Of a DNA stretch of 64,000 nt, positions 640 through 63,526 are shown one piece after another. The translations under genes were made by a program, and so were the position numbers. Position 1 is the stretch's first letter, and each line of letters opens with the position of its first letter. This DNA is from Narthecium ossifragum (lineage: Eukaryota > Streptophyta > Magnoliopsida > Dioscoreales > Nartheciaceae). The notes below the pieces were generated by a model. It was not told the origin of the DNA. It did no database searches and saw nothing but the letters and a program-made list of their open reading frames with translations. The stretch is from the NCBI GenBank assembly GCA_963920575.1, contig OY986966.1:10332048-10396047 (forward strand), read 5' to 3'.

Positions 640-1075
640 ATCTTCTATTGAACAAGATCGATCCTCTAAAGACATCAAGAAGAATCCAACCTGAGGAATA
701 AAGATCGATCTTCAGAAGCTAAGAAGATCAGTCTTTTCTGTGCTCCAAAAGTTCCAGGGAGTAACAATTCAACAGATCGATCTTTAACCCCTTGAAGATC
801 GATCTTTTCTGTGCAAAGGAGATGACAGAGCGCAAGCTTTCAGAAGATAGATCTTCTTCCACTAGAAGATCGATCATCTTATGAAGGTGAAGAACACATG
901 AAGCGATAAAGATTGATCTTCACAGCATAGAAAGATCGATCTTCCTCGGGACGCATCCAACCATCCAAGAATAAAGATCGATCTTCTTATATAAGGAGAT
1001 TGATCTTCTACGGGAGAGGCGAAGCACACGGAAAAAAGATCTATCTTCTCCTTTATGAAGATTGATCTTTCCTTA
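640..1075. repeat. Array of GATCGATC-centred palindromes in the Athila LTR
   Basis: About eleven copies of AAGATCGATCTT or one-base variants (AAGATTGATCTT, AGATCTATCT) recur at irregular 20-60 base spacing. Each copy is close to a perfect palindrome. The array ends about 55 bases before the TATA box, in the U3 promoter position. The same motif recurs internally at 7020-7410 and in LTRs of another family at 16345-16765, 34055-34105 and 35895-36235. Confidence 0.8.
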
Positions 1076-1130
1076 TCAGCTCAGCAAAATCAACGCCCAG
1101 ATCTAATCCGAGTGGGGGAGGCTCCTAGGT

Positions 1131-1138
1131 TATAAATA
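1131..1138 (+). promoter_or_regulatory. TATA box of the Athila 5' LTR
   Basis: TATAAATA lies about 1.03 kb before the LTR end and just downstream of the palindrome array, the expected position for the U3 promoter of a plant LTR. Confidence 0.6.
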
Positions 1139-2172
1139 GACCCTTTTGGGAGAATTTTGGGGAGGCTCTTGTACCTCTTTTAACTTTTCTCCACCGAATT
1201 TAGAATTGGATCTTTTGGAGGAGATCCATGAGAGGAGAGCTTCATCGACCTCCATCTATGGATCAATCCCACAAAATGAGTACTTAAACTCCTAGCCTAG
1301 GGTTTTTTATGATGTAATAAGGGTTTCTATTAGGGATTTTTTTGGATTTAGGACTTGTAGACCTTTTTGAATGATTTTTATGGATTGATCTTGATTTCTA
1401 TATGAATTTGGTGTTGATTTCATTCATGGATGCTTGCATTGCCTATTTGTGTTCTAGATCTAGGTCTGTTGCATGCCAGGGCTTGGATGGAATCCTCTAA
1501 TAGGGGGAGATTCATGCTAGAACCATGGATCCTTTCTTGATGAGGGATTTTAGCCAAGATTAGAGGTGTTGTAGTGCTAAAACCATCACAAACCTATCCT
1601 ATTTTTGTAGATTTGGCCATCGAGGTGCTAGAACAATCTCGATCTTAAACATAGATCCACACTATGATAGTTTTCTTGCGATGACTCCCTCCTAAGTAAA
1701 GGATTTGTTAGCGGCGATCGAAACTCATCGTTAGGTCGCTGATTTTTAGACGATTGTTCATGCCGATGAGGGATCTTAACCCGATCATTATCGAGCGATA
1801 GGTGGAATTAGCCATTCATCTATTGACACTTAGATTTAGCCATTCAATTTGGTTAGCTCACCCTTGTCCTAGGAAGATCTAATAGAACCCTTTTTATTAA
1901 TTAAGGATCACTCGGCCCTTCCTCATATTTGATCATCCTTTAGCATTATTTTTGGTTTAGTCTAGTTAAAAATCCAAATCTAAATCTTTTTCCCCAACTT
2001 CTTGGCAAAGATCTATACGAAGTATCCCACCTCAATCTTAGTTTTTCCCCGTGGATCGACTCAGACTCACAGCTACCTACCTCCAAAGTAGTTAGTTAGT
2101 AGTTCGATTATAAATTTATAATTTTGATCGGGCGCGTTAAGCCACAACACTTTTTGTGCTCTATCAAAATTT

Positions 2173-2190
2173 TGACGTCGTTGCCGGGGA
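2173..2190 (+). promoter_or_regulatory. Primer binding site, tRNA-Asp type, mutated
   Basis: TGACGTCGTTGCCGGGGA matches the tRNA-Asp-type primer site usual for Athila elements (TGGCGCCGTTGCCGGGGA) except for two transitions, one G to A and one C to T. It lies six bases after the terminal CA of the LTR, with an A/T-rich spacer. The tRNA assignment is from family knowledge. Confidence 0.75.
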
Positions 2191-2425
2191 ATAACTAGTT
2201 ATTGAGTTGCTTACTTAGTGTAGTTTTCTCTTCCAATTAGTTGTTTTCTTTTGCTTACTATATAAAAGACCAAAAATAGAATCGTGCTAATATTACCATA
2301 TCCTTTTGTGATCATTAGGGGGAATGACGAAGCATCCTTCCAAGCGGTGGAGGAGCGATCGCCGACAACACGTCACTGAGATTGCCTTGTTTGTATTCCT
2401 CAACCTTGTTTGACCTTTGTGATGT

Positions 2426-4208
2426 GTGAATGAGAACCCGGATTTTGATATTACCTTGCAAGCATATTTAGATTCTCGTTTTGCATCGCATAAACCTTTA
2501 GACCCTCATCCACATCTATCTATGGAAAACCCCAACCCTAATGACCATCCCAAACCTATGGCCAATCCTCACCAATCCGAGAATCAAGGTCGTAGGGTTA
2601 TGAAGGATTTTTATGTTCCTAATTCTTTCTCGTCGAATTCTTGCATTCAACCCCCGGTGATTGAGGCGGCTCATTATAAGATCAAATCACAATTTCTATA
2701 ATCTTTACCGGCCTTTCAAGCATTATCCCATGAAGATCCTTATAGCCACATCGAGGAATTTATTTTGATAAGTTCTATGACGAGAGTCAACAATTTTACC
2801 GAAGATGCTTTGAGACTTAAGTTGCTTCCTTTCACTCTCAAGGGTAAAGCTAAATATTTGTTTACTTCTTTGGATCCTCGATCCATCTCCACTTGGCCCC
2901 AACTACAATCCCAATTTCTTGTAAATTCTTTCCCATTACCAAGACTAGTGATCTTCGGCAAGAAATTGCTTCTTTTAAACAAGCCGATGATGAAGCGTTC
3001 CATGAAGTTTGGGATCGCTATAGAGAATTTCTTAGGAAGTGTCCCCATCATCAATTTCTTCAATGGGCCATAGTAGAATATTTTTATAAAAGGATTAAGG
3101 AGAGGTACCAACTAACCATTGATGCCGCTTGTGGGGGAGTTTTCATCACCAATCCTCTTGATGATTCTTGGAAACTCTTTGAGAAACTAGCCGATAACTC
3201 CCAGCACCATTCCTCTTCTTCTAGAAACAACCGAGGACCTTCAAGCCAACCTACTCCTAGAGGAGTTCTTGAGCCTAATGAGTCAACCCTCCTCACCCAA
3301 CAAGTTTATGTTTTGAGTAGGAAGCTCGATCAAGTCCTAACCCAAACTATAAATCGAGTTGCTTCCTCTAGGCCTTCGTTGCCCTCATCTTCGGGGGAAC
3401 TTTGTTTCTTGTGCTCCGCTCCCGGGCTCCCGGCCACGATGTCACCGATTATCATTTGGCATGCCACTACCCGAAGCTAGTACAAGAACATGTGAATGCA
3501 ATCTACGGTCAAGCCAAGCCGGTTTATGATCCTTATTCAAATACCTATAAACCCAGTCTACGAGACCATCCAAATTCCTCTTGGAGGACACCCGACCAAC
3601 AACCAAATTCTTTCAACCAAAGGCCGCCATCCATGGGCACTTAAGCCACAAATTATCCTCAAAAATTCCAACCGACATACCCTTCTAATGCTCAAGGCCA
3701 AGCTCCTCCATTCCAACCATCATATCGGTCTCTCCAAGCTTATCCTCCCCAAGCAGCTTACCATGCTCAACCATTTCAATCATGGGATAGACCATATGGA
3801 CCTTCTTAAGGTCAAGCACCTCGGAGCCAACCTTCTCATCCTCAACCACAACGGAAACGAGAGCAAAATATTGATGAGAGACTTTTGAAGACCTTGGACT
3901 CTTTTGAAGGGAGTACCCAACTACTCATTTCCCATTCTCAATCTATAGCAAAAATGGAAATACAATTGGGCCAATTGGCCAATGCTATATCAAGAAGGGA
4001 AGAAGGGAGAGTGCCTAGCCAACCCGTCCCTAACCCCAAAGGCCAACATTCTATTCATTCATCCCATGAGCAAGTTCAAGTCGTCATGACCCTTCGTAAT
4101 AGTAAAACCTTCGCCAATGTTGAGAAACCCAAGGAGGACACCCTTGATCAAGAGCATGCATCTCATTCGCATCATCTCATTCTCATGCATCACACAACAT
4201 CTGTCTAG
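2426..4208 (+). pseudogene. Athila-type gag, broken by stops and frameshifts
   Basis: Gag polyprotein of an Athila-type retrotransposon, which would form the particle core. The reading starts MNENPDFDITLQAYLDSRF and hits a stop at about 2700. It resumes in frame through the capsid-like part (SHIEEF, LPFTLKGKAKYLF), changes frame near 2930, then continues as FFPITKTSDLRQEI and YREFLRKCPHHQFLQWAIVE. Further frame changes follow near 3420 and 3650. The tail (KMEIQLGQLANAISRREEGR, then VVMTLRNSKTFANV) is the conserved junction that leads into protease in Athila. Protease itself is absent, because an LTR fragment begins at about 4209. No single open frame covers the gene. Confidence 0.8.
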
Positions 4209-5713
4209 AATAAAGCGGAATAAAATAGACACTCAGGCCTACAAATGGGATACAACCCCAGCTAAACTATCAAGCAACTATGACAGCAATATAATAATAT
4301 TTTATTCAAAGATGAGGGCGTACTTAAGGCCCATTTATTCTACACATCCTAGGGGAGACGCAACTCCCCTAGTTCAACCACAAACCACACATGGGCTTAA
4401 AATAATATATATATTCAAGATATGATTAAGATAATCGATTTACGTAAATCAAACCAATTATATCACAAAACTCAGAAAATTGTACCTTTCAATCTAGCCG
4501 TCCGATCGACATAAAACTTGATATACCCAATCAATGGCATACTCCAAATTACATATCCAAAAACTGGATTGATCAGATAGATAACAGTAGATCAAAACTC
4601 ACAATTTCTGTAACAATCCAGATTTAACAAACTAATCAAAATCCTATTGAAAATATCTTGGATAAAAACCAAACTTTGCATATCTCTTCCAAATATCATC
4701 AACATAATCCCCTCCAAAAATTAGCTCAATTAAATATAGAAAAGCAACTTAAATCCTCAAGTTAAACCAACTGCCCTGTTTCAGCACAGACAGCTTATTT
4801 AATTCACCAGAAATTCTACGTAACTGTACAAATCATTAAACTAATTGGAAATGAAGTCTAACTCAGAGATATACAACTTTCATATAGAACATCAATGGAG
4901 ATCATGCACATACAGATCAGAAAATAAGCTAGAACACCACTGTTCTGCTAGAACAGAAACTCCGGAAATCAATTGATGAAAAACATGCTTAAATTCAACT
5001 TAAATCCAAACCAAATCCACTGAACCTTCAGAAAGTTATTAATCTTCCCTAGGGTAACCATCTAGCATAGTTTAATTGAAAAACAAACAATTAAAATCAA
5101 CCAAAAGCACCAAAACTATCCTAAACATAGAATCCTACCTTACTACGCTTAATCCACGATTAATTTTTGATTAAACCGTCCAAGGGAGGTTTGGATCTGC
5201 TCTTCCCCTTGCTGGCGACGTCCCCAAGCCTCTGGATCAAGCTCTCCTCACGGATCAAAGGAATGGTGAAGAGAAGAGAAGAAAAAGAGAAAACCGAGGC
5301 GGTTCGCGGGCTACTTATAGAGCCGAGTCCGATTGGTCGCTCCCTCAAGCAACCGATCGGTCTATGTCGGTTCGACGTTCTGGAAGGACACATCAAAGGC
5401 GGTGCCAACATCAATCCGATTGGTCGCTCCCTGGAGCGAGCTATCGGTTTGGGCTGACAGCTGTCCTAAAGACAACTTCTGCGCGCCCGAACTCAGATCT
5501 TTCGATCCCAAGTTTGCTTAAAGTTATAATAAGCATAAATAACAAATAAAATGGTTGTGCCTGTACATCACGGGCGCCGAACCAACCGCCAATGCGCAAT
5601 TTATCAAATTGCCCTTGGGATTTTCATGATCAACCCGATCGCGGAACAAAACCAAATGGGTCAGACCCTCAACCTAACGCAGTCGGAGTAGGTTGGAGGA
5701 ATGGGTCCTCACA
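4209..5713 (-). mobile_element. Right part of a TGTGAG-family LTR (copy A)
   Basis: The right edge ends GGTCCTCACA, the inverted 5' end of a family present at least seven times in this window. The content shares blocks with other copies: a GGGATACAACCCCAGCTAA block, the CCCATTTAT block, an ACAACTTTCAT block, and the closing segment with TTGCCCTTGG. The other LTR end is missing. It replaces protease, RT and RNase H of the surrounding Athila relic. At 5325-5450 it carries its own palindrome variant (CCGATTGGTCG / CCGATCGG) where other copies have AAGATCGATCTT. Confidence 0.7.
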
Positions 5714-6675
5714 TTCGTTGCCAACAACTTGACAACATTTCTAGTCGGAATGAGATGCCCCAAACTCATATTCTTGAATGTGAAGTTTTCGATGTTCGGG
5801 GCATTGATTTCATGGGCCCCTTTCCACCCTCGAATGGGCATACTTACATTTTGTTGGCTGTCGATTATGTTTCAAAGTGGATTGAAGTCATAGCCACTAG
5901 GACCAATGATCATCGAGTTGTCATCAAATTCCTTCATTCTAACATTTTCTCTCAATTTGGTCATCCTAAAGCTAGCATAAACGACGGAGGGTCCCATTTC
6001 ATGAATAGATATTTCCGAGCCACCCTTGATAAGTATAACATCTCCCATAAGGTTACCATCCTCAAACTAATGGACAAACGAAGGTCTCAAATCATGAGAA
6101 CAAGCGTATCCTTGAAAAGGTTGTGCGCTTAGATAGAAAGGATTGGTCCATAAGTTTAGGTGATGCCTTGTGGGCATATAGAACCGCATACAAAACACCC
6201 ATACGGATGTCACCTTACCGGATGGTTTATGGAAAACATTGCTGCCTACTGGTAAAACTCATGGAAAAGGCTTGGTTTAATATTCTTAAGATTAATTGGT
6301 TACCCACCGGTCTTGATGCTCGCTTGCTTCAACTTGATGAGTTAAAGGAAATCCGAAATGAGGCCTGACAATGGCCTCATTTATAAGTCCCGGACAAAAG
6401 CTTATCATGACAAATTCATTGCACATAAAACTTTCAACGTTGGCGACAAGGTTTGGCTTTTCAATGCCAAGCTTCGTCTTTTCCCGGGGAAGCTCCAATC
6501 TAGGTGGAATGGCCCCTTCGAAGTCACTCAAGTCTTCCCTCATGGTGCCATTGAAATACATAATCCCAAGTCCGGTTCCACCTTCAATGTAAATGGCCAA
6601 AGGTTGAAACCTTATGTTGAAAATCCTCTCACCTTAGAAGCCACAATGATCTTGCATGAACCGAATTATGAGTGA
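5714..6675 (+). pseudogene. Athila-type integrase, broken
   Basis: C-terminal part of the pol polyprotein, which would join element cDNA to the chromosome. Directly after the LTR junction come [15 protein letters not shown] (end of the HHCC zinc finger), [18 protein letters not shown] (first catalytic Asp), and [13 protein letters not shown] (second Asp). The third acidic site reads [16 protein letters not shown], with Lys where the family has Glu. A frameshift at about 6050 and another near 6360 separate the core from the C-terminal part ([20 protein letters not shown], then WNGPFEV). The protein ends at the stop after HEPNYE. It is catalytically dead and interrupted. Confidence 0.85.
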
Positions 6676-7019
6676 TTGAGCTTGCATTGTGTTGAGCTAG
6701 CGACGTTAAATCAAGCGTTTGATGGGAGGCAACCCATACTTTCTTCGTATTTTGATGAGTTTGTTTGAGATTTCTTCTTTGCACACTTGATTGTTTTCCA
6801 ATTATTTGCATGTTCGATTTTGGTGTGTTTTTAAATTTATCTATGTTTGATCAATTGTGATGTCAAGATGATATTTTTTGAATTCTCTTGTTGATTGTTG
6901 GTTTGGAAGGATGGGAGTGTTCTTGCTGTGGAATTTCAAGGCCTAGGGAGTTTAGTATTCATGTATGAGGTGTTAGAGGAGTGTTCCCAGGTTTTCAGCC
7001 TAGTTTTGCGTTTTTCTAT
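6676..7019 (+). other. Athila 3' untranslated segment with the GGGAGGCAACCCA box
   Basis: Non-coding stretch after integrase. At 6699-6736 a GACGTTAAATCAAGCGTTTGATGGGAGGCAACCCA-like block (given here in part) is the conserved post-integrase sequence commonly seen in plant Athila/Tat elements. The rest is T-rich, with no open frame. Confidence 0.55.
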
Positions 7020-7410
7020 GCACAAGATCAATCTTCCGAGCGGTGAAGATCGATCTTTGTTTGGACTGGTTTAAAAGCTGAGGCATGGTCGAGAAAGATC
7101 GATCTTCAAGCTCATTGAAGATCGATCTTTCATGAAGTTTCTGCAATTCTCAAAGACAAGAAGATCGCTCTTCCCTTTTCCCCATCATAGCTGAGCGGCC
7201 ATGTAAAGAAGATCGATCTTTCATGCGGAATAGATCGATCTTCACTACTTATCCACATCAGCAAGTCTTTAAGTGAGATCGCTGGTGATGCTGCCACGTG
7301 TCAAGAGATCGATCCTCCGACTCTGCAAAGATCGATCTTTTGCGAGGGGAGTTAAAAAATATATAGGCGGGAGATTGACTTAGGGCTCACAAGCCCTAAG
7401 ATCGATCATT
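7020..7410 (+). promoter_or_regulatory. Internal palindrome array plus TATA, upstream of the post-pol ORF
   Basis: Ten copies of AAGATCGATCTT or near variants lie at about 7025, 7047, 7095, 7116, 7160, 7207, 7230, 7305, 7329 and 7400. A TATATA at 7360-7365 follows the ninth copy. The arrangement repeats that of the LTR (array, TATA, leader), but the flanks do not match the LTR, so this is not simply a 3' LTR. It sits between integrase and the decayed last ORF. Promoter function is inferred. Confidence 0.55.
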
Positions 7411-7411
7411 T

Positions 7412-8160
7412 CTTCTCCCCTTCTCCTTCTGCACCCCACTGCCGCCTCTCGTCGTCTCTGCCTCTGACCGGCGTGCCACACTCTCCTTCGACTAAAGCGC
7501 CTCTGACTGGCCTTCGTGAGCTCCCGCGACTCCTCTCCATCACTCCCCTCCCCTCAAGCACTCCCAACATTTTCGCGATCACCTCACATTCCTTCATCCG
7601 GCGGTGTTGCCTTGAGGTGTCGCTCTGACGAGCTTCGCTGGTTTCAAATCGTCACCGCCGGTCACATTCCTCATCCCTCTTCACCTCTTCTGACGATCCA
7701 CTTCCATCTCATCCCCTACCAAATCCCATGGGGTGCAAGACGGTAGCGGCTAACAAAGAGCCTGTCGGAAAGGGAAGGTTGCCGCTTCCTCTTCCACACC
7801 ACCGGCGAGGCCACCCTCTGCTCCTTCGGCGAGGCCACCCTCCGCTCCTTCAGCGAGGCCGCCTCCAACACCTCCGCCCAAGCAAGCTTCCTCCACACCG
7901 TCCTCACGGCAAGCTACTGGCCCTCCTCCTCCGTCCACACAGCCGGTCAGAGCCACACGAGCCCCGTCACCTCTTCGACAACCATTGCTCCAGCAACATC
8001 TAAGAGGAAGGCTGTGCAGTTTCTTCTTTCAACCCTCCCCAGTTGAAAAAGCAGAAGAAGAGCACCCGCCCCTCCATTGCACCCACAGTCATCCGAGGTC
8101 TCCACCTGCGATGGCAGCGGGAGGTAAACCTCGAGTTTACTTTTGACATCGAGATTGAAT
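7412..8160 (+). pseudogene. Decayed post-pol (env-position) ORF of the Athila relic
   Basis: A GC-rich coding-like segment about 50 bases after the internal TATA. The clearest frames read a repeated Pro/Ser/Ala unit (SAPSARPP three times near 7810-7870), then TSKRKAVQF (about 8000) and RGLHLRWQREVNLEF (about 8095-8140). These are separated by frame changes. Athila elements often carry an extra ORF here that starts with a low-complexity Pro/Ser-rich region and a basic patch. That fits, but I cannot identify a conserved domain, and the start (ATG at 7728 or further upstream) is unsettled. Confidence 0.4.
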
Positions 8161-8506
8161 TTTTAATGAAATAGGCGGTTCCTCGATAAGCTTTTTTAAA
8201 TCATCAATTTTCAACCGCAGATTGGCTCAGTAAAACATCAAATAGTTTGCAGATCTCAGCTAGAAATGAAACCTTGTTTGCGTGAAAAAAAATTTGACTA
8301 ACTGTTCATCAGCAAAATTTCTTTGTACTTTATAGGCGTGGTTGAAAGTAAAAATATCAGAAACTGGAAAGTCAATTTCCTCTTGAGTTGCAGGTAATGG
8401 TCCCCAAGCCAGGAAGGGAGCAAGCAAGGGGCCGGGGATGGGAAACGAAACGGAATGTATCGGATTTTTAGCACATACAACCATCAAACCGATTCACTTT
8501 CAAGAT
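8161..8506. other. Unassigned stretch before the plastid tRNA fragment
   Basis: No gene recognised. The last 50-60 bases before the tRNA fragment may be plastid spacer that came in with it. This needs alignment to a plastid genome. Confidence 0.3.
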
Positions 8507-8568
8507 GCCTTGATGGTGAAATGGTAGACACGTGAGACTCAAAATCTCTTACTAAAGAGCGTGGAGGT
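8507..8568 (+). pseudogene. trnL-CAA: Truncated plastid-type trnL-CAA (nuclear plastid DNA insert)
   Basis: The sequence starts GCCTTGATGGTGAAATGG, continues through the D arm (TAGACACGTGAGACT) and the CAA anticodon loop, and on to GAGCGTGGAGGT. This is nearly the plastid tRNA-Leu(CAA) gene up to its long variable arm. The T arm and acceptor 3' half, which should continue with a TCGAGTCC-type sequence, are missing; GCAATTTAGACAG follows instead. One change lies in the D arm (CGCGAG to CGTGAG) and more in the anticodon-stem 3' side. It cannot fold as a full tRNA. The organelle origin rests on remembered sequence and should be checked. Confidence 0.75.
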
Positions 8569-9028
8569 GCAATTTAGACAGAAATGGAATGGTGATGCTG
8601 GGATCTTGGATAGAAAAAGGTGAGATTTCCGTAGTAAAATTTTTGACTGGCTGAAGATTAGGTTTACAATATCACCAGGGTACAGTGTTCTTTCATGTGG
8701 GAAATCGTATATTATTCTTTCCATAAAGTTCCTGTGAGGGGAAGGTGACAAGTGGCACTTGCAAACAATTCTCTCTAGACTAATCTTTATTGTGCTTGGT
8801 AGAAGAAGAAAAGGCGGTGGTGAAGCTAATGGACCAATGGCTGGAATGATGGCTACCTCATTCTCCAAGCTAAGTCCTTAAAAAAATACTCTCATCTCTG
8901 TACTAAAACCATAGTTTAATTCCAGACAAAAGAAAAAGTGATGACGGTGGTCACTGTGTGATCATGTGTGTGTGCAATATATTAAAGACTAAAGCCCCCA
9001 CTCTTTTCAGAGTTAAATAGTGTTTTAG
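8569..9028. other. Unassigned stretch after the tRNA fragment
   Basis: No family recognised. A 110-codon open frame exists on the - strand (8539-8868) but resembles nothing known to me and may be chance. Confidence 0.3.
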
Positions 9029-10543: not shown

Positions 10544-12609
10544 ATGGACGACTTGTTGAGTGGCATGTACGCCATCGAGGGGCCATTGCAAGATGGTTGT
10601 ATGCCGCTTCTTCAAAACCGCAAGTAACCCACTATCAAATAGGAACCCAATGTTTGCGATATTCTTGTTTATGTTCGTAGCAATTATATGTGAAAACATA
10701 GTATCTAGATGCTGCCCATTGATACATAGCATTCTATGCATCAGAACACTAGATTTTTCATGTGTCTGTGCATCCTTTGGGCATAGTATGCCTCAATTAG
10801 CAGAATGTAGTTGTTACTTCGCTCTCCTTGTTTTGTTTGTTCTATGCATTATATGTTTATGATATAGTCTCCTCTTTTCACAATAAACTCAATTCTTATG
10901 TAAATTGTTTTGGTTTTTTTGTTTTGTATATCCTCTGTTCACAGTAGAACTCAATTGTTCTGTTTTGTTTTGTTTTTAGCATACCTATAAACAACAAATC
11001 ATCTTGGGAGCTAGATATCAGGCTCAAGTATGATGGGTTTTGGAAGAAGCAGCCAAAGTCTGAAACCATGAAGTATGAGTGTGATAAGGTGAAGACCTTC
11101 AAAGTGCATATCAAAAATTCTACATTAGAAGAACTAAGAGGGGACATAACAGCTTTATGTTCATGAACTTTTGGCAATGAGTTGCACATCTCATATCTAA
11201 TTCCTGGATCCAAGCCCAAACAATATGAAGTCATTCGAAATCAAGATGAATACAGGAGAATGCTTGATGTTCTTGGTGCTTATGAAGAGAAGCTGGTGGA
11301 GATGTTTGTGGTGACTGGTGATGCCCCAAACCTTTACGGCAGAGCAGAGGATGAAGCTAAAAGGAATGTCACAAGGCTCTATGGTGAGGCAACTGGTGAT
11401 GGAGAAGAGGAAGTTAGAATGGATGACTATGAGCCAGGCATGGAATCTGACTGGGAAGATTTCTTGAAGGCCAAGGGTATCAACATAGAGGACCCATATG
11501 CCATGCAAGACAAGGCAGACTTTGTAGATGTTGGCAGTGACTATCATTCAGTTAGCAGTGAGGAAGATGGAGAGCAAGAAGGGACTGAAAATGAAGATGA
11601 AGCAGACTTTGTGCCTACATATGAAGGACACACTACCTTTGTTGACAATGAAGATCCTGTGATGAAAGCAGGTGCTAAGTTCAAGATTGAAAATCATCTT
11701 AGACTTGCACTTAGACTGGACTCTATCAAGAATAAGTACAAGTACCATGTAGTCAAGAGAGACAGAGAGAGGATCACAGTTAGGTGCAAGGAAGAAAGTT
11801 GTCCTTGGAGGATTCAGTCCTTAAGACTTTATGATAAGAGGACCTTTGAGATCAAGAAAGTGTCAGGTGCTCACACATGTTTTGGGAAAAATTCTGTTGG
11901 AGGGGAGATGGCAACAATAGTATGGATTAGTAGTAAAATCAAATTGTTGATGGCAGGAAACTCACAGACCAAGTGCAAGGATATTATAAAGCTCATGTGG
12001 GATAAGTATCAAGTGACTGTGTCATATACGAAGTGCTAGAGTGCCAAAGAGTTTGCATATGAGCAGGTTCATGGGAACATAGGTGAGTCTTTTAGTTATA
12101 TACCTACTTTGAGGGAGGAGCTATTGCTGAGGAACCCAGGGAGTGTCATTGAGTACACTGAAGACCCATATCAAATTTTTGAGAGGTTTTTCTGCTGTTT
12201 TAAAGCATCAATGGATGGGTTCATTGTAGGATGTAGGCCTTTTTTTGGTGTTGATTCAACCCGTTTGAAGGGTAAGTACTTGGGAGAGCTTATGGCAGCT
12301 ACAGCCGTAGATGGGAACAATGTCTTGTTCCCAGTTGCATTTGCAGTGGTGGAGTCTGAAACTGGAAATGCATGGTCTTGGTTCTTTGAGATGCTGAAGA
12401 AGGTAATGGATGGAAGGGTGGAACACCTGACAGTAATCTCAGATCAAGACAAAGGAATCAAAGAGGTAGTTTATGCCATCATTCATGATGCAGAGCATAG
12501 GATATGCATGAGACACTACTACAAAAACATCAGGAAAAACTTTCCAGGAGATGCCTTTGAGGAGGCTGTATGGGATGCAGCCAGGGCATGTACTAAGCAT
12601 GAGTATGAT
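10544..12609 (+). pseudogene. MuDR-type transposase pseudogene, 3' truncated
   Basis: Transposase of a Mutator-like element, which would cut and join its DNA in the nucleus. A likely first exon (MDDLLSGMYAIEGPLQDG) is followed by a probable intron (GT at about 10624, AG at about 10980). Then comes the MuDR N-terminal part (SSWELDIRLKYDGFW; HISYLIPGSKPKQYEVI), an acidic region, and the DNA-binding part (VRCKEESCPWRIQSLRL...HTC). The MULE core follows, with GVDSTRLKG (first Asp), ISDQDKG (second Asp) and HRICMRHYYKN. In-frame stops sit at 11164 (TGA) and 12037 (TAG, where the family usually has Trp). The catalytic Glu and all downstream sequence are lost at the LTR junction at 12610. Confidence 0.85.
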
Positions 12610-13930
12610 TGTCAAACCCCGATCCAGAAAACTCATATGGACCGGGGCGTGAGGGACCTAAACCTATTCACTTCAATCCGACGCGATACATTACAAATTC
12701 CACAATTAATTTTAACAATTTAACTTCTAATGCATACATGTTAATCTAACAATCTACTAACAATCTAAAACCCAAGATTAGAAGAAACATAATTCTATTG
12801 ATTTAACATCAAAGTTGTACTATTTAGAAATCGGGTACATATCTATATCAAAAGTCCTCAAGGAAGGAAATCATACATTTACAAAATCCTCAAAGGATCT
12901 CTATATACAAAAACTACAATGGGTACAACAGATCTCCCATGGCAACCTCAAACGCCTCCAGAAGTCATCACACCGCCAAGAGCTGGCCCAGCTAGAGCTA
13001 CAAAAGATAAGCTAGCGTCTACACCTGCAAAACACTGCCTGAATAGGAGTGAGCAACAAAGCTCAGTAGGGTTCTATTCTACGTCACACAAAAAGGAAAG
13101 GGAACCTACAAAGTCCCGTGTTCCGTCCCATCTTTAGGGGGAACTCACGTTATGTCCACCGCCTACCCCAGGACACGCACTCTGTGATCTCCACCGTCAA
13201 CAATCGTCCCTCTCAACAACCAAGCGCTCCAGCACTATAACAACATGGCGTAGGACCTAGGGTGGTACGTAACTTCCCCTAACACTGAAACTGAGACTGA
13301 GACTGAAACCCTAGGGTGATTTCTACACCTCAATCAAAGTGATAGTAGCCAATTAGACAACAGCCTCGAGAATAAAAGATTTACTCAACAATCACGCCCT
13401 AAACCATGCTACCCAGTCACGGTCCTAGAGCTAGATTCGAGCTGCCTGAGCCCTCGGATCGGCGAATGACCCATCGCCCACGCCTAACTTGGAATGCCTC
13501 TAATACATACAGTGCATGCACCTATAAAAGCATCTAAGCTAGGTATCACTATGTGCCACATTAACATATGAGTCTACAGGTTAAGCTACTAATATAACAA
13601 AGAATCCAACCTGATTCTTTAACAGCAATCGACAACGCCGTTATACAATAGCCTTTGGCGCAACGCTGGCACACAACAGGCTAAGGTTCCAATGTTATCC
13701 AACGGGTAACATTTCCAACAACACAACTAGTGTTTAACAACCAAACAGATCAGTAATGCAATTCTGAGAGTTATCACTCTCCCGGTTAATCCACAAAGAA
13801 GTAAAGGGCATACTGTCGGCCCATTTAACTAAGCATGCGAGGTCATACCTTTGTCCCATTTATCTACTCATTCCCGGGTGACTTGCCCTCAAATATGAGT
13901 TAGCTTATACTCCCAATTAAGCGCAGGAGT

Positions 13931-23581: not shown

Positions 23582-23586
23582 CCCGC

Positions 23587-43573: not shown

Positions 43574-43651
43574 GGTGCGAGGCTCAGTTATGGTTTTGAG
43601 TGGAGACGGGAAAGGAGAGGTTGATCCTGAGGTGTGGCGGACGAAGGAGAG

Positions 43652-43758: not shown

Positions 43759-43775
43759 AGCTTTGATCGGGGGAT

Positions 43776-44060
43776 GTTTATAAGGGGAGATTATGTGAAA
43801 ATGATTGAAAAGCCCTCACTTATTGTCTGACGATCCGTGGCGATCGACCCTCAGAAGTTGGCGGTCGACCGTCGCGAACAATATGTGTAATATTAAAGTC
43901 TCACGGTCGATCCGAGGAAGTTGGCAGTCGACCGTGGCACACGATAGGTGTAAAAATGAAAGCCCACGATCAATCCAAGGAGTTGGTGGTCGATCGTCCA
44001 GTGCGAATGTACGCACGGTCGACCGTCAGGAAGTCTGGATCGACCGTCAATTCCAAAAAG
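43776..44060 (-). promoter_or_regulatory. Internal palindrome array plus TATA upstream of the third ORF
   Basis: Eight GGTCGACC-type sites lie at about 43852, 43862, 43903, 43925, 43965, 43987, 44014 and 44038. On the - strand they are followed by TTATAAA at 43777-43783 and, about 200 bases on, by the third ORF's start at 43573. The motif is the one in this element's LTRs, but the flanking sequence differs from the LTR. Promoter function is inferred from arrangement. Confidence 0.6.
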
Positions 44061-44178
44061 TGAATTTTAAAATTCAATTTAAAATCATTTTTAATCAAAA
44101 CATCACAAAACTTTGCATACACGTGTAACTAAATATTATGAGCTAAACACAACTCATAAATTATAAAAATTACCTAAT

Positions 44179-45717: not shown

Positions 45718-45723
45718 CTCTTC

Positions 45724-47320: not shown

Positions 47321-47375
47321 CTAGCCTTTGTATTGGTCTTGATCTTGGATCTCATACAGTCCTATAAATAAGAGA

Positions 47376-49169: not shown

Positions 49170-49220
49170 CTCTAGATAGGATCCTCTAAGGGTTATTACA
49201 CTACTAAAAATAGAGACCTA

Positions 49221-49232
49221 GCTCTGATACCA
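49221..49232 (-). promoter_or_regulatory. Primer binding site, initiator tRNA-Met
   Basis: On the - strand TGGTATCAGAGC follows the LTR end after AT, the classical tRNA-Met primer site of copia elements. It continues into TAGGTCTC. Confidence 0.95.
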
Positions 49233-49234
49233 AT

Positions 49235-50341
49235 TGAAGGTCCAAGAGGGGGTGAATTGGACTCTTTTCGAAAAACTAGAGTAATAGAAAAATCGGGTAG
49301 AAGAGAACTAACACCTTAAATGCTTGTAGATGAAATGAAACTAAAGTAAAACAGCATGCAAGAATTATATCAAAGAGAGGTTAGAGAGATAGCACCGATT
49401 TTATAGTGGTTCGACCCAACTCTTGGTCTACGTCTACTTTTCTCAAGGCTCTACTTGAGGTTCCACTACTTGCAAATCTTTTACAAGCTTTTCCTCCAAG
49501 CTTCCCGGTGCTTCGTGACCTTACAATCACAGCCAACTGCTGTTGGATAACTCTCAAAGTACTCCTTCACACTCGAAGAATGATTTACAAAGATTATAGC
49601 TCTAAAGAGAATAAGTAGTAACTCTTGCTTAGACTTGCTCAAATGATCTCAATAATATAAATAATAGTTATGGCAAGTTTACAACAAAGAACTACTTATA
49701 TCTAGCCTTCAACCAGCTAAAAAATGACCTCCAACGGCTCTCTGTAACTCTCCAACGGCTAGTTTTTTACTCTGCGCGTTGCTGGCGATTGATCCATGCA
49801 TCGTCCGTGACATCGACCGTCATATACAAAAACTCAGCCTTTGCGACCCACGGTCGATCCACCCGTCGACCGTCGCATCGTCCGTCAGGCTCTGTTGTGA
49901 AAAATGCTTCCCAGGGTCGATGCTCCGATCGACCGTCGTTTCTTCACTTTTCACCAACATCCTCCACGGTTGACCGTTGCATCGTCCGTCGGATCGTCCG
50001 TGAGCCTACAATATTTAAAAACACAAAGTCTAAACCTCACGGTCGACCGGTCCATCGACCACCGTATCGACCGTCAGGCTCTGTCAAGAAAATGGATTCG
50101 CAGGGTTGATGCAATGATCGACCGCGAGCCAACATTTTATTTTGTCAAGTATGGTGCATCGTCCGCGGTCGATCCATGGATCGACCATCGCATCCCCACG
50201 GTCGATCCATGCATCAACCGTCAGTACAATAACTCATTAAATATTGAATTTGAGACTTTGAATTAAGGGGTAATAAATATTAAACATATATTTTATCATT
50301 TAATGTATGTTGGCATCATCAAAACAAGGTTTGGATCAACA
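49235..50341 (-). repeat. 5' LTR of the SIRE-type element
   Basis: 1,107 bases. On the - strand: TGTTGATCCAAACCTTG start, palindrome array (50225-49785), TATA-like TATAAG at 49695-49700, then a transcribed part with the conserved GGTTCGACCCAACTCTTGGT block on the other strand. GGTCGATCCATGGATCGACC at 50167-50186 is a perfect 20-base palindrome, also present in LTR copy F at 50707-50726. Confidence 0.95.
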
Positions 50342-51955
50342 CAAGGCGTTAACAATACTAAAGCAAGTGTATAACATGCGATCATTGATATAAAATCGAA
50401 ATTTCACAATTTATGTCTACGGTTAAACTGCATCCAAAACACTCACCAAAACCCTGGAAAATCCTCTGATAATAGTATGCATGCTTCCTAACATCATTGG
50501 CTATCTATCATGAAAAAAACCCAATCAAAGAAACACGAAAAATCCCTATTCAAGGCTAGCGATCGACCTTGTGGTGAGTCAAAAGCTGGCGGTTGATTGG
50601 AGCATCGACCCCGGGGAAGCAAAATGGCAACAGAGACTCACGGTCGATGTGGCGGTCTATGCAATGGTCGACCTTGGAGCATGGGTAAACAAAAGCGGGG
50701 AATGGCGGTCGATCCATGGATCGACCTTCAGAAGCTATTTTGGGGATTTTGAGGCTCACAGTCTATACGAAGGTCGACCGTAGAGCCTGGGTAATGAAGA
50801 AAATTTGGAAGTTCTATTCTGACATAGTTTGGGATAAAAATTTACCAAAAACCATAGAAACATCAAAAAAATATGAAATCAACTGGATTTGGAAGAAGAC
50901 TCAATGATCTCCAACTTTTATGTTGAAGGTTTCCCGAAACTATGCACGCACAGTGCTCTGATTTGGGCTCGAACGGACAGTCTCAATGAAGAACAAAAAA
51001 TCCAGGAATTAAATGTGGAAAAGATGCTGAAATCATAATTAAATCCAAATAAAACCTAATGAAACTTCAATCAGCAATCAAACAACCCAAGAAGTATCAT
51101 ATAACAAGAAGAGAACAAAGAACAAATAACCTAATCCACAGATTTAGCTTAACGCGAGTTGAACTCAAGCTAAACGCAACAACCCTACCTTACCACGCTA
51201 ATCCGCCATCAAACCAGCTCCTCCCTCATCATTGTCACCTTCAAGCTAGCCGGAGAATGCTGTCGGAGCTCTCTCTTAAGGCTTCACTCACGACGGGAAG
51301 GAAGAAGGAGAAGAAGGAACGTGGGAGGCAGGGGAAGGAAAAGAAAGAGAAGGAAGAGGTAAGGGGGTATTTAAAGGGTCTAGTAAACCGCCCTATTATA
51401 GTGATCGACCTGCTACAGTGCGAACCGACCTGCTATAGTATGAATCGACCATCCTTTTCAATCTTTTCCGATCGAGCTCCGATCTTCCGATCGAGAGCGC
51501 CTATAAGGATCTAATCAAACACTTATATCAATTCAAGGTAGTGTGTGCACTACACGGGTCTGAAACCGACCTCCAATGTGTAATTTACCAAATTGCCCTT
51601 GGAGTCCAAAATCAACAATGCGATCAAACAGATCGAGCTCGACACGAAAACAGGCCAACATGGCTCGGCCTCCGACCTACGCAGTCGAGCCAGGTTAGAG
51701 GAATGGGTCCTCACAAGCCACCTTTCGCGGTCTCCTTGAAGAACCGGCCTCATGTGGGCCCCCTTAAGCTTGCCAGCTCACCCTATCCTACTTTAGATCC
51801 CTTACTGTTTTCCTAGTTTGCTTTCCTAGTTTAGTTATTCATATTGTAATATAACTCTTGTTTTAGGAAGTTATTTGCTTACATAGGAAGTAACCTAGTT
51901 GGAGTTCAACTTCCTTTAGGACTCTTGTATTATGCTACTATGAGCTTTTTGTTCG

Positions 51956-57793: not shown

Positions 57794-60203
57794 TGTCGCG
57801 CCCCGACCCGCGAAAGCCCAACCGGGCCAGGCGACGCGAACCGGAACCTACAAAACGCGGAAAACAAAGCTGGCGAGGGTTCCCTCTAACCTATTGGTCT
57901 CCCTAGCAATTCATCAGAAACCCCCAATTAAATCAATATTAATTAGCAAAACCTCGAACCTCAGATTAAAAACTCAAGTGATAATGTACAAAACCTCGGA
58001 GAGGGGAAGATCCAAAATACAACATACTCCCGTAGGAGACTAACTAACATAAGGATAAAAGCAGTAAATATCGCCACCTCTCAAAAGCCACCAGGCGTCG
58101 CCGCACCGCCGTCCAACTGCCCGGTAGGGGCCACAGAAGAGGAACTGACGCCTGCACCTGCAAAACGCAGCCTGGGTAGGTGTGAGCACTAAGCTCAGTA
58201 GGGATCTACACTACGACACACATAAGGAAGAGGGAAACGCAACAGTGTCGCCCTCAAGCCAGACTCGAGTGAGCTACAATGGTCCCATTACCATTCACCG
58301 GTGATCTCTAGGCATATCCAACCATGGTCACCCCAACGGACTGGGCCCATCCTGGATACACCTAGTGTCGCAGGGTTCCAGCTGTGGTCACCCATCACTC
58401 ACTGGGCCCACACTGATGCCCCTGTTGGCAGGAATGGACACTGCCCAAAGAATCAGACCCACCACCGGTGGCATCCTCAACACCTGACTTGAGGCTGACA
58501 CGACCTCTAATCATCATCAAGCAACAGGTGCACCAGTCCTCTAGGCCTATCATCGAATCGACTGGCACTACAATTCAAACCGGGTCCAAACCACCCAACC
58601 TCGGTCCTAGGGCTAAGTCCGAGCTTCCAGCCTCGGGACGGCGACCCAAAGATCACCCACGCCCTAACCAATGCAACTAATGCACAAACCAACAATGCAT
58701 GCTATGACATACACAGATAATAGGAAAGGCATGCAGCAGTATGTCAAGCATCATATAAGTCTACTAGATCGCTACAACGGTACCACCAACCGCTGCCAGC
58801 CGATCCGCAGCGGGTCCCGGCATTACGACGGTACCGCGACCGTCAACCGCGGACTCCTGCAACGGGAAGCAACCCCGAAAACCGTTGATGAACAGTACAC
58901 AATATAATATTATATTCTGAAATATAATATTATATTCAAACACCCAAAACCACTACTTAGGGCTAATTGATCCCGTCGATCCGACGTCCAAACAACGTCG
59001 GATTCACGATTCAACTTAGCCACTAGTAGGTGTATAAACCAGGATCATCGTATCCAAAAATCATAATCATCCAACGGTTGGATTGACGGGAAAACGCTAA
59101 TCAAAATTGTTAATCAAACTAACTTATCCATTAATTGCTGCAACGCAGCCCTCCAGCAAACAATTCATAAACAATCGTACATTAATCAGAAACATACGAA
59201 ACAAGATGGAATGGAAAGCTAGCGAGTAGAGCTACAACTCTTATGTTTATCAAAAGCCAAGATCATGTACTCGCCAGCCGAAAAACTCGCCGCAAGCCGG
59301 CTGTTTCTCAAGAACAGCAGAAAACCAGAAATCCGAGACTAATCTTACATAAAACCTACTCAAATCTCAACTGATTAATATGAAACTCAAATCAGTTATT
59401 CTGCAAGGCATAAGGAATCCAACAAAGTAAGGATCAACAAGATCCAACGGCTAGATCTCAAGAAAACCCGAAATAAACACAGTAGGTATAACCCTACCTA
59501 GCCGCGCTTTCCTCGGCTGATTCCCCGCGATTTGATCACCAACAAGCCTCCAAACCACTTCAGGGATCTTCCTCTCGTTGTCACGAATCCAACGAGCCTT
59601 AGAACGCCGAAAAAGATGGCCGGAGGAGGGAGAACGGAGGAGATGAAGCTCGCCGGCGGTAAAGGGAAGAAAACAGAGCACCGCGGGAAAGAGAGAAGGA
59701 AGGAAGAAGAAGAGAAGAGAAGGGAAGGAAAGAAAAGGAAGGAAAAGCCTGGGGAAGCCGGGAAAATGGGGGAAAAGCTGGGAGAGGGGAGGGGAAGTCT
59801 TCCCTCTCTGATAGGGGAGAGCGACGGCCGACGGCCGTCCTCGCGAAAGAGAAAGAAAGCACCGACTCGAGCATGATCGATCTCCAAGGCATGTGAGATC
59901 GATCTCCTTTGCAATCCAAATCGATCTCCTTGAAATCCAGATCGATCTCCTTTGCAATCCAGATCGATCTCCCTAGCCATCCAGATCGATCTCCTTTACT
60001 CAGAAAGGCAAACTTGGGCTAAAACACAAGCCCAAGCTCAGATCTTCCGATCTCGGGTTCACCTAGCCATTCTAAACAAACACGAACACAGACAAGGCCA
60101 GTGTGTGCACACGCGGGTGTGAAACAAACCAACAAGGTGCAATTTACCAAATTGCCCTTGCGGTCTACAACGAGCCACAGGGGTAGAGGGGATGGTCCTC
60201 ACA
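57794..60203 (-). mobile_element. Solo LTR of the TGTGAG family (copy G), TSD CTAAC
   Basis: Starts TGTCGCGCCCCGACCCGCGA and ends GATGGTCCTCACA, flanked by CTAAC at 57789-57793 and 60204-60208. Length is 2,410 bases. It has the usual blocks (ACCTGCAAAACGCAG, GTAGGTGTGAGCACTAAG, GGCGACCCAAAGATCACCC). Its palindromes are GAGATCGATCTC (59877-59990). No coding region; the open frames around 59450-59980 are low-complexity leader sequence. Confidence 0.95.
59877..59990. repeat. Array of GAGATCGATCTC palindromes in copy G
   Basis: Six copies with 18-25 base spacing (59877, 59898, 59919, 59940, 59961, 59984), separated by CTTTGCAATCCA-type units. Each core is AGATCGATCT. Confidence 0.85.
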
Positions 60204-61054: not shown

Positions 61055-61085
<31 letters not shown>

Positions 61086-61222
61086 GGGGAGGGAGAACAC
61101 CATCATACGAAAAGACTGGTAGAAAAGATGTATATATTCAAATGCCACCTATCACGAAAAGGGAGTTGATTACTTCAAAATCTACCAAGTGGCACCAGCC
61201 AAAAAGAAAAGATGCGTGGTAA
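61006..61222. other. Tat 3' internal region with A-tract
   Basis: No gene. A run of 18 A with a following AAAAGAAAAG stretch lies at 61053-61085. Confidence 0.5.
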
Positions 61223-61858
61223 GAACTATTAATGCAGGGAGGACATACGTTGAGAAATGGCTGCCACACAATCTCTACAGTGGCGCCAGGCCAATTGGTT
61301 GGCCTTTTTTTGCTCCCGAGCCTCCTCCCAATGAGTATTAACATCAGCGGTTTAAAAAGCACGGAACTTGTCCATATCACAAGGAGATGCGTCGATCAGC
61401 TCATCCATCTCTTTCTTGCAAGCTGCTTGAGCATATTCATGCTCTTCAATCTTCTCCTTGATCTTTCGGAGTTGCACACACAATTCCACCATGGCCTGAT
61501 CGTGGCCAATTATCTCGTTGCTTAGGATACGAAGCCGTTCAACATTTTTGTCTATCCTTCTTTTGAGGTGATCTCTTTCACTGCATCCTTGGCCACTCGC
61601 GGCCATGTCCTCCCGCGCTAACTTACCTTGTCGGGTGAAGAACTCAATCTAGTCCTTGAGGTCCATGACTATTATGAGCTCATCAGAAGATACCACAGAC
61701 GCAGTTCCTCGAGCCCGGTGAAATACGTTTAACGCACTCTCAAAATTAAAAGTATTCTTTTCGAAAAGGGCTTCTTGAGGATCTGCCTCAAAGACTTCAA
61801 TGCAAAGGGGGATGGGGTGCTTGATATCTGACTTGGGGGGGGACCAGGTATGTTACGG
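61223..61858 (-). pseudogene. Antisense ORF in the 3' internal region of the Tat element
   Basis: On the strand opposite to pol, one frame is readable for about 200 codons with only two stops. HPIPLCIEVFEADPQEALFE, then ARGTASVVSSDELIIVMDLK and a TAG at about 61650 are followed by IEFFTRQGKLAREDMAASGQ. The frame then enters a coiled coil (RRIDKNVERLRILSNEIIGH; ELCVQLRKIKEKIEEHEYAQ) and KEMDELIDASPCDMDKFRAF. A TAA at about 61355 comes next, followed by TADVNTHWEEARE and the end at 61223. Antisense genes of this kind are known from Tat-lineage elements such as maize Grande. I do not recognise this family. The N-terminus is unclear near the C-run at 61835-61845. Confidence 0.6.
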
Positions 61859-62116
61859 TCAGTTTTCGACCGATTAACCCAACAGAACTGCACCATTGAC
61901 ATGGTCCTTAAGAACAAGGATGCTTTCAAGGAGGAGGGAATGTTACGGTCGGTTACCAACCGACTGACCCAACAGGACAGTACCATCAACCGACTGGAGA
62001 ATATTCATCAAATATTCTTTGATACTGAAAATGATCCGAAAGATTGGAAGAAGATAGAGAACTCGTTGAGCTACAACCTTTCTATTGGAAACTTTCCCAA
62101 ATTCTCGATAGATTGA
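61850..62116 (+). pseudogene. Open frame built from a 90-bp duplication
   Basis: MLRSVFDRLTQQNCTIDMVL (61850) and MLRSVTNRLTQQDSTINRLE (61940) are the two copies of a 30-residue unit. After them come HQIFFDTENDPKDWKKIENS and the stop at 62116. It may be a fragment of a Tat coding region or of its leader; function is unknown. Confidence 0.4.
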
Positions 62117-62236
62117 GTGCAAAAGTCGACACAACCCGGATCTGGACTGGGTCCAGAAAAATCCGACCCAAGCTACCTTGAGCGGCCTCCTTGAAGCGCC
62201 GGCCCCATGTGGACCCCTCTTGAGCCAGCAAACTAA

Positions 62237-63526
62237 TGATGAGTCATTAAATATTCATAATTCAACTACTTAATTTATCTTTGTTAGTTTGAGAGTTTTT
62301 GTATTTGATAGTTTGTTAGTTGATTTCATATTTAATAAAGATTCAAGATAGAAACTACATAAAAAGATTAATATGCTGAAAATACGCTACTTCACCGTCA
62401 GTTTGAAAAGAATACATCAAACTTTCTAGAAAATTCATAAATTCTTGAAATTGGGTGGACTCCTAGAAGACATTGAGATGAACAACTTTCATGTTAGAAG
62501 TTTTACCAATTTTACAGAGGTTCAAGAATTATCAAGATGAAGTTGGCTGAAAAAACAAGTCTTGACAATCAATTGCCTAGACGAACGATCAATCGGTGAA
62601 TAGTAACGATCAATCGGTCATACGGATGATCAATCAGTCGGACGGAAACCTAAGTTCAGAAAGATTAGAGATTAAGTTCTACTTGAAGTGCAATTAATTT
62701 GGCCGAGTTTCTCCCTAAAAAAGGAGGATTTCTGGCTGAAAATAAGGAGGAATCATAGATAGGAAAGAGAGAATTAGGGTTTCTGAATATGGTGGAGCCA
62801 AGGTTATGGCTTTCATCCCCAAGATGAGTAGCTAATTCTTCTATTTAAGGATCTCATGAAGATTTACGATAACTTCTCTGTATTATTCTAATTTGAATCT
62901 TGTATTCCTTTTCTAGACATGATCTTATGTATTTGATTTTAATGATAATAGAGTTGAAGGAATAAAGTTCCCTTGATGAACTTTTAGGCCTACATGATTT
63001 CTGTGATTGATTGTAGAGATCCATAAGATGATTTTAATGTGGTTTGTGAATACCCAATGAGATACTTTGTACTTAGTGATGATAGGTTGTGCTTAGGTTA
63101 TCCCAAAAACAAGCTATGCTAATCGAAGATAAAGTATATCTTTGGAAAACACTAACCTTCTTTTAGGGATTCATGTAAGCTTAAGAAGTTATGAATCTAT
63201 ACTCTCTAGATAAGAAAACAAGAGGATAACTAGAGAATACAGGAAATGAAACTAAAGTGGATTGAGTAATCCCTAGGTTTTTCTTTCATTGATTTATTTT
63301 AATCTTTTTATATTGTTTTCTTAATTAGTTTTAATTAATCAGTTTCCAAAATCCAATAAACCCTTCATTGGCTTAAGATTAGAGTTTTGAGATTTAATTT
63401 AGCCTTTATTGTTTAAATAAAAAGTTTTCTTGTGGACCGACCCCGGACTTCATCATTATTCTACCCTATTAGTTTACTGTTTGAATAAGGGTATATATAT
63501 TTCTAAATTGTGGATTGCATATGATT
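62237..63526 (+). mobile_element. LTR of the W family (copy W2)
   Basis: Starts TGATGAGTCATTAAATATTC, the + strand version of the end of W1. It contains the shared GGTTTTTCTT, ATGGATCTCTACAATCAATC-type blocks in inverse order to W1 and GTGGACCGACCCCGGACTTC at 63433. The right edge (about 63526) is uncertain and no target duplication was found, so it may be truncated. Palindromes of the CGATCAATCGGT kind lie at 62580-62645. Confidence 0.65.

Follow-up and report, generated by a model that had tools for sequence, protein, structure and literature searches.

Rows of short palindromes are known from plant retrotransposons. Passages of PMC2829016 (Bousios et al. 2010) describe palindromic repeated motifs (RM boxes) in 13 Sireviruses, placed in the long terminal repeat (LTR) before the TATA box and in the linker before ENV. 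The same passages report these motifs as specific to Sireviruses and absent from classic copia elements; a CGG-CCG core occurs in all but one of the 13, the Vitis motif is CGGTCGACCG, and that of Tnd-1, ACAATCGATTGT, has an ATCGAT core. A further system (Bousios 2016), as described in excerpts of PMC10760457 and also cited in PMC5311732, consists of rapidly evolving palindrome clusters in LTRs, and the same palindrome is frequent in Helitrons. Here we describe a 64-kb window, the whole stretch that was analyzed, at positions 10332048–10396047 of Narthecium ossifragum contig OY986966.1, which is part of a 379-Mb assembly of 150 contigs and contains nested LTR elements throughout. Several unrelated LTR families carry rows of GATCGATC that are paired about 22 letters apart and often precede start signals. 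These rows look like a shared on-switch whose outer letters vary by family.

The copia arrays of the window are of the Sirevirus RM kind and already known. They resemble RM boxes, as far as the excerpts describe them, in being many-copy palindromes located in the LTR before TATA and again before the ORF (open reading frame) at the ENV position, and they have CGGTCGACCG in common. An earlier note on this DNA held that no named system of this kind exists; for the copia case that statement has to be withdrawn. Unlike RM boxes, for which the excerpts report no fixed pair spacing, the GATCGATC type extends here to a gypsy element and to several further groups of LTRs, and the members of its pairs are about 22 bp from each other. 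The Bousios 2016 system shares the clustering of palindromes in LTRs; the motif here differs, and gypsy elements are not covered in what the excerpts relate of it. Among the papers listed by an open-literature search, outside of which Bousios 2016 fell, there was no report of a paired GATCGATC array in a retrotransposon context. Among the literature consulted, the pair grammar across superfamilies, the internal array of the gypsy element, and a switch of arm dialect are new.

The arrays are designated by their carriers: a gypsy element called Athila (Athila LTR and, ahead of its third ORF, Athila pre-env), a copia element (SirL and SirR in its LTRs, SirLink in its linker), and the LTRs A1–A3, B1, B2, V, W, X, and Y; loci outside the window bear L numbers. 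The window contains 143 palindromes of at least 10 bp, including 41 with the cores ATCGAT (32), GTCGAC (7), or CGATCG (2). Order-1, -2, and -3 Markov sequences (10 each) contain palindromes with these cores with means of 2.2, 3.0, and 7.4 and a maximum of 11, and the arrays recognized in the earlier note are thus real. Their positions, as given there, hold to within tens of bases; an array at 33812–34110 had been overlooked. A comparison with shuffled sequence was made for exact 10-mers in 15 stretches with 500 dinucleotide shuffles (p uncorrected), and 9 of the 15 were significant. No shuffle reached the observed count for the Athila LTR, Athila pre-env, A1, and W arrays; p values were.006 for X,.018 for B2,.03 for A2,.032 for B1, and.036 for A3. 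By the same exact 10-mer measure, SirLink (.058), SirL (.098), SirR (.12), Y (.17), and V (.17) were not significant, and 62570–62650 had zero palindromes of the tested type. Allowing one mismatch in 12 rendered SirL (0/500) and SirR (.002) significant and removed significance from A2 (.058) and A3 (.22). Positions 62588–62640, in other LTR-like sequence, hold three direct CGATCAATCGG-like words about 20–21 bp apart, possibly CpG-decayed copies of the same site.

The arrays extend beyond the window. Twenty 10-kb stretches, picked by coordinate before any look, contained 9 arrays within 7 stretches. Counts across the assembly refer to exact words, include related copies, and are lower bounds: GATCGATC pairs with gaps of 2–32 number at least 90,378, compared with 141 for the reversed control, 14 for the same-composition palindrome GTACGTAC, and 322 for the reversal of the latter. 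With gaps of 16–29, at least 6,345 GATCGATC pairs occur; AAGATCGATCTT pairs number at least 1,553 at gaps of 5–30 (control, 0) and 83 at gaps of 12–28. Scans of viral contigs revealed no relatives, with five loci (L001–L005) matching by pattern. In three plant contigs found in bacterial records, whose inclusion of LTRs was unchecked, palindromes with the three cores were absent, which is no more than a hint against a universal occurrence of the arrays. These contigs (L006, L007, and L008) are plant gypsy sequences inside Solirubrobacter, Geminicoccus, and Nomurabacteria (metagenome-assembled genome) records, presumably by contamination; L006 and L007 look alike.

The feature that the earlier note missed is the spacing of the copies. 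Among the first 100 genome places listed, spacing was 19–23 bp in 92, 30 in three, and 38–40 in five. Consecutive spacings in the coordinate sample measured 20–23 bp in 31 of 62 cases and 24–36 bp in 3 of 62. When all 256 palindromic 8-mers were tested, GATCGATC was the only one, AT repeats aside, that was often paired at 20–24 bp (25 pairs against 2 for the next 8-mer in the sample, 14 against 1 in the window). In the window arrays, a site was counted if it departed from a GATCGATC- or GGTCGACC-type core by at most one base. A neighbor at 20–24 bp was present for 14/14 copies of the Athila LTR array (expected, 3.5), 8/10 of Athila pre-env, 6/8 of A1, 8/8 of A2, 8/9 of B2, 12/13 of SirLink, and 6/6 of W. 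A3, B1, SirL, SirR, Y, and V showed no significant pairing at this distance, and in X 12 of 15 copies have a neighbor at 11–13 bp instead.

The same spacing is found in arrays without detectable homology to each other. We masked the sites and compared ten arrays, with 60 shuffles each. The X and copia arrays gave a z of 14.7, with 75.6% identity over 160 bp, a 30-nt exact match, and an orientation that is inverted relative to the LTRs. Elsewhere z exceeded 4 for copia-Y (5.4), Y-W (5.6), and A1-A2 (48.5); the Athila LTR, Athila pre-env, A, B, and W arrays did not exceed 4 with each other. These results support one transfer or a common source for X and copia, with the remaining arrays apparently unlinked by their flanks. 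The claim that unrelated families (Athila gypsy, copia, and other LTR groups) share the arrays stands, with few flank links, and descent from a single ancestral LTR was not seen. "Portable," the term used in the earlier note, is borne out for one pair, X and copia.

Passive duplication would offer one account, in which a two-palindrome unit was duplicated and carried along without function. W, B2, X, and the copia linker and leader are partly tandem repeats, the number of pairs varies from 4 to 8 among 12 Athila copies, and the copia linker sites evolve like their surroundings, all of which would be expected. However, repeated copies within the Athila, A1, and B arrays have flanks that are near random (.25–.34 identical) around cores that are alike (.74–.90); over 15 bases on either side the Athila and A1–A3 values are.25–.42 against.82–.90 for cores. 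Right flanks are less random in X, SirL, SirR, and W (.45–.52). Considering these flanks in Athila and the A arrays together with the spacing shared by arrays that lack homology, we regard passive duplication as very unlikely.

We scored TATA-like words out of 9, set the threshold at 8, and searched up to 200 bp past the last copy. The assertion that arrays lie just before a TATA box held for the Athila LTR (60 bp), B1 (49 bp), B2 (60 bp), both copia LTRs (84 bp), the copia linker (57 bp), and V (8 bp). It is weak for Athila pre-env, where the best word scores 7 and lies at 17 bp, and was not borne out for W, A1–A3, or X; in Y the word appears only at 164 bp. No word of 8 or more was found within 200 bp of the Athila pre-env, W, A1–A3, X, or 62586–62640 stretches. 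In the coordinate sample the distances were 63 bp (L023b), 63 bp (L025), 64 bp (L028), 64 bp (L033), 23 bp (L017), and 77 bp (L023a). Seven arrays (L023b, L025, L028, L033, Athila LTR, B2, and SirLink) thus have the word at 57–64 bp. By chance, such a word occurs in 21% of random 200-bp pieces and within 110 bp on either side of 24% of random points; because TATA words are this common, the regular distance is the stronger evidence. Two further arrays, L025:803–1091 and L033:3678–3932, with TATA at 63–64 bp, share no homologous flanks with the rest of the arrays in the comparison. Some of the links between flanks that this comparison gave within the window are false, since nested elements have overlapping flanks.

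The gypsy element occupies approximately positions 1–9000 and encodes gag (2854–3480, PF03732) and integrase (5692–6129, PF00665), followed by a third-ORF region. The element aligns at 34–44% to pieces of the L006 gag-pol, and the relatives of the integrase are named gag-pol or K02A2.6-like. The PF03732 gag, the gypsy-like integrase relatives, and the L006 alignment indicate that this carrier is not a Ty1/copia Sirevirus; the name Athila is taken from the earlier note and from primer-site features. No reverse-transcriptase match was obtained in the window copy. LTR V (4118–5719) is inserted in its pol, about 1,100 pol residues are unmatched relative to L006, and the copy seems deleted. The LTR array (633–1070, plus strand) is written in the AAGATCGATCTT dialect and comprises 14 copies that form 7 pairs (21–23 bp), with pairs separated by 40–49 bp; the TATA box TATAAATA follows at 1129–1138 on the same strand.

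A second array in the AAGATCGATCTT dialect lies in the gap between the integrase and the third ORF (7024–7340, plus strand). It contains four pairs at 22–23 bp, with one more site at 7398, and AATATATAGG (7356–7366, plus strand; 7 of 9) is a weak TATA-like word of a putative internal promoter. The label LTR is incorrect for 7020–7410 and for its copia counterpart at 43840–44060, both of which are internal and separate pol from the third ORF. To find further copies, a 331-bp query from before the array was used; it gave 40 scored matches of 674 candidates, and 12 of the 40 were fetched at 1.1 kb each. All 12 contain the internal array, with 4 to 8 pairs. Their 142 spacings of up to 80 bp fall at 21–23 (72), 39–50 (47), and 70–76 bp (23), with none at 24–38. 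In 6 of the 12, the last pair is followed at 22–24 bp by a TATA-like word scoring 8 or more; by eye, L036, L037, L039, L040, and L043 have AATATATA or AATATAAA, and L041 has no TATA-like word after its last pair. Across 13 pre-env copies, columns that hold a site in at least 5 are.86 identical and linker columns.68. In an Athila comparison with sites defined in either copy, sites are.79 conserved and linkers.59.

The copia element (40680–50339, minus strand) is bounded by LTRs at 40680–41778 and 49235–50339 that are 92% alike. It contains gag, pre-integrase, rve, SH3, and RVT_2 in copia order, and its relatives are 43–71% identical among 120 listed of 7,985, the named ones being from plants except for one bacterial record. 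The primer site, presumably of the initiator-Met type, adjoins the 5' LTR. The array of the 3' LTR (41225–41665, minus strand) is built of ACGGTCGA-N8-TCGACCGT units; that of the 5' LTR lies at 49785–50225 on the same strand. The linker array (43840–44050, minus strand), which is Sirevirus-like, uses the dialect CGGTCGACCG, with four pairs at 20–21 bp, and TATAAACA follows at 57 bp. Next come a 42-bp tandem repeat with CGGTCGAACC words (43647–43754, minus strand), within what is presumably the 5' leader of the third ORF, and a part of that ORF (42667–43272, minus strand) that matches PF20167 (Transposase_32, E 2e-18). The element thus has palindromic boxes in two places, ahead of TATA in its LTRs and, within the linker, ahead of the ORF at the ENV position. 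Sireviruses have multiple polypurine tracts, including AGGGGGAG at 10 bp from the 3' LTR; the GGGGAG and GGGGGAG words visible beside the 3' LTR here do not, by eye, appear to lie at this published position. L028 holds a second copy of the element, 82% identical over 7.5 kb; its linker pairs are spaced at 21, 21, and 21 bp, with one pair fewer.

The arms that surround GATCGATC include AAG, GAG, AGG, TTGG, TCCG, and ATG, and CGG surrounds TCGA. Family B allows a comparison of dialects. The array of solo LTR B1 (LTR 21998–23582; array 22357–22701, plus strand) uses TCCGATCGATCGGA, and that of B2 (LTR ~25690–24075) lies at 25039–25333 on the minus strand. Both LTRs begin with TGATGA, and CCCGC is found on both sides of B1. 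Family B is probably near Athila, because in L009–L013, possibly chimeras, a B-like 5' part is followed by a 3' end that resembles Athila. In B1-L047, 5' flanks are.88 identical, cores.95, arms.25, and linkers.64; the corresponding values are.88,.93,.31, and.76 for B2-L047 and.85,.95,.48, and.73 for L023b-L047. Arms differ from linkers at Fisher p values of 7e-6, 5e-7, and.012, respectively. No excess change of arms was detected in Athila-L028 (.54,.54), L052-L028 (.65,.55), or L047-L011 (.59,.58); B1-L011 provided just two aligned sites. Within a single dialect, arms are.73–.97 identical. The choice of L047 rested on how far it lies from an Athila match and not on its arms, and L009–L013 were found by the AAG pattern. 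Spacings in B1, B2, and L047 are alike (22–23, 59–60, 31, 23, 49, and 23 bp), one extra site aside. In family B, the arms changed nearly as a set at constant spacing. Methylation decay was rejected as the main source of variants: 45 AAG-type copies contain 7 CpG transitions (C to T or G to A).

The earlier note also stated that arms vary and remain self-complementary. Across families this tends to hold. In the coordinate sample (68 exact cores), the self-complementary share of sites is.63 at offset 1 and.63 at offset 2, compared with.35 and.30 when permuted, and the arms fall within the permuted range at offsets 3 and 4. The 13 Athila pre-env arrays (138 exact sites) give.57 against.40 at offset 1 (p.0005); no excess over chance is seen at offset 2, and at offset 3 the value is lower than chance. 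Within single arrays, 0/44, 0/43, 0/7, and 0/88 changed bases retain self-complementarity, so compensatory change was not observed there.

Such complementarity raises the question of hairpins. Each pair would be an inverted repeat that forms a stem in the transcript or in single-stranded DNA and gives rise to small RNAs or acts as a structural signal, and the palindromes would be a by-product. Paired copies are complementary inward at offsets 1–4 (.69,.69,.50, and.56 against.29–.33 permuted; 78 distinct pairs, p.0005 each), and at offset 3 mutual complementarity exceeds self-complementarity. Folding z scores of 13 arrays on both strands range from -2.4 to -11.8, whereas 40 controls average -1.0 and go no lower than -6.0. 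In maize, according to excerpts of PMC5311732 and PMC10760457, small-RNA hotspots coincide with palindrome-rich regions of Sirevirus LTRs. A hairpin, however, needs mutual complementarity only, yet every core is self-complementary, and at offsets 1–2 self and mutual complementarity are of about equal strength. In addition, partner copies do not covary within families (p.17,.24, and.83), inner offset 4 is complementary in 6% of Athila pre-env pairs, and a fixed TATA distance is not predicted. We consider the hairpin explanation unlikely; the best reading of the arrays, one of the two offered in the earlier note, appears to be a symmetric binding site.

We propose that the arrays are probably promoter-proximal, protein-bound regulatory modules of LTR retrotransposons. 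Protein binding is favored because of the pair spacing, the TATA distance, the symmetric core, and the near-random linkers in several arrays. In this model, a symmetric DNA-binding protein, most simply a dimer, would occupy each GATCGATC or GGTCGACC core with its arms. Two dimers would form a pair about two helical turns apart, pairs would recur every 62–72 bp or so, and the row of pairs would activate the downstream TATA promoter. Elements with a third ORF would hold the module twice, in the LTR and ahead of that ORF, which may thus have its own promoter under the same control as the LTR. GATA-type factors were set aside as a candidate binder; the text of the papers listed in the literature check contains no GATCGATC.

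Several observations weigh against the proposal of protein-bound modules. In the arrays of X and of the copia LTRs, copies are instead spaced at 12 and 24 bp. Spacings of 49–51 bp correspond to non-whole helical turns, and 10.5-bp phasing (R.45) is surpassed by a period near 9.6 bp (.61); clean helical phasing of whole arrays was rejected on these grounds, and the helical reading is limited to the pair spacing, the firm part. There is no good TATA near W, L016, L026a, and L026b, and by eye the A1, A2, and Y arrays lie about 550–1,100 bp downstream of the apparent TATA. Conservation of sites in the copia linker does not exceed that of the rest (.74/.72, window compared with L028). The high core identity in the B/Athila arm comparison (.88–.98) is partly built in because the copies compared were chosen by core match. 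Finally, the mutual complementarity of paired copies is what a hairpin would explain.

Whether the protein comes from the host or the element is a separate matter. The third-ORF protein (PF20167 in copia, the env-position ORF in Athila) might bind the array in its own LTR and that before its ORF, in a positive loop like that of foamy virus Tas or as an anti-silencer like VANC; arms would be a family code, and LTRs without genes would borrow a dialect. Excerpts of PMC4929722 and PMC8670036 describe Tas as acting on the LTR and an internal promoter, which provides a parallel of one regulator and two promoters; these are vertebrate retroviruses, and the likeness is an analogy only. VANC/VANDAL target motifs, in excerpts of PMC5735166, are short repeats in noncoding transposon DNA that differ between related elements and evolve together. 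Their accumulation and divergence resemble what we describe; in contrast, the VANDAL elements are DNA transposons, the VANC21 motif YAGTATTAY is not palindromic, and the binding protein is proven.

An element-encoded regulator would be consistent with the use of one dialect in the LTR and before the third ORF, both in the window Athila (AAG) and in copia. It would also fit L052 (an LTR with mostly AAG arms), which lies ~7 kb upstream of L044 (pre-env, AAG together with ATG, GTG, and AGG); the two, probably the same Athila copy, share AAG. The arm switch in family B points the same way, as do X, which has the copia dialect by homology, and A1–A3, which share the dialect of Athila without flank homology. 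In L008, from another plant, an ORF after an Athila-like integrase (1736–2341) matches PF05515, a viral nucleic-acid-binding family (E 4e-8), and is a possible nucleic-acid-binding third ORF. Against this idea, host factors could produce the same pattern, and AAG, AGG, ATG, and GTG arms occur side by side in the pre-env array of a single Athila copy. The window Athila has no long frame and no Pfam match past its internal array. For the copia third-ORF protein, a homologue search yielded none at E 1e-3 among 107 candidates, and the fold was dropped after a single-sequence model proved unusable (pLDDT 34). We view an element-encoded regulator as doubtful; it is a special case of the protein-bound array, and the probabilities of the two overlap. 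It is tempting to speculate further, by analogy, that plant LTR superfamilies run circuits like those of foamy viruses, in which a third-ORF protein binds a paired array in the LTR and before its own gene, arms serve as a fast-changing code that gene-less LTRs copy or mimic to be driven in trans, and dialects compete within one genome; this scenario is improbable as it stands.

The remaining arrays reside in large LTRs that begin with TGTGAGGRCC (X, Y, A2, V, and W by their starts; A1 and A3 by homology) and are solo or broken in the window, where neither they nor the B LTRs have internal genes. The X/Y group may be Tekay/Del, a lineage suggested by the LTR ends and unproven. Solo LTR X (37559–40157) carries CGGTCGACCG/GGTCGATC units at 12 bp (38508–38892, plus strand). 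The others are on the minus strand: the Y array at 50557–50785 (LTR starting at 51715), the AAGATCGATCTT-type arrays of A2 (35897–36234; LTR 37076–34158), A3 (33812–34110), and A1 (16346–16766), the W array at 59873–59994 (LTR starting at 60203), and the short V array at 5328–5440 (LTR starting at 5713). W is a tandem repeat of six GAGATCGATCTC copies every 21–22 bp, and in W-L016 sites defined in either copy are.74 conserved against.58 for linkers; V has CCGATCGG/CCGATTGG, with TATAAGTA 8 bp after. Target-site duplications, by eye, are CATAC for X and AGCCA for Y. Between 37082 and 51715, LTR Y is interrupted by the copia element and solo LTR X, and A2 and Y share AGCCA side by side. Pieces of a Mutator-type transposase (DBD_Tnp_Mut, MULE) lie at 11167–12723.

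If the array does serve as a promoter grammar common to these elements, LTR families with no sequence in common could be co-activated, and a family could switch allegiance through a few base changes per site. The env-position ORFs of plant retrotransposons, which are debated, would also gain a testable explanation. The ~90,000 site pairs in the genome would be a resource for finding the binding protein in one experiment.

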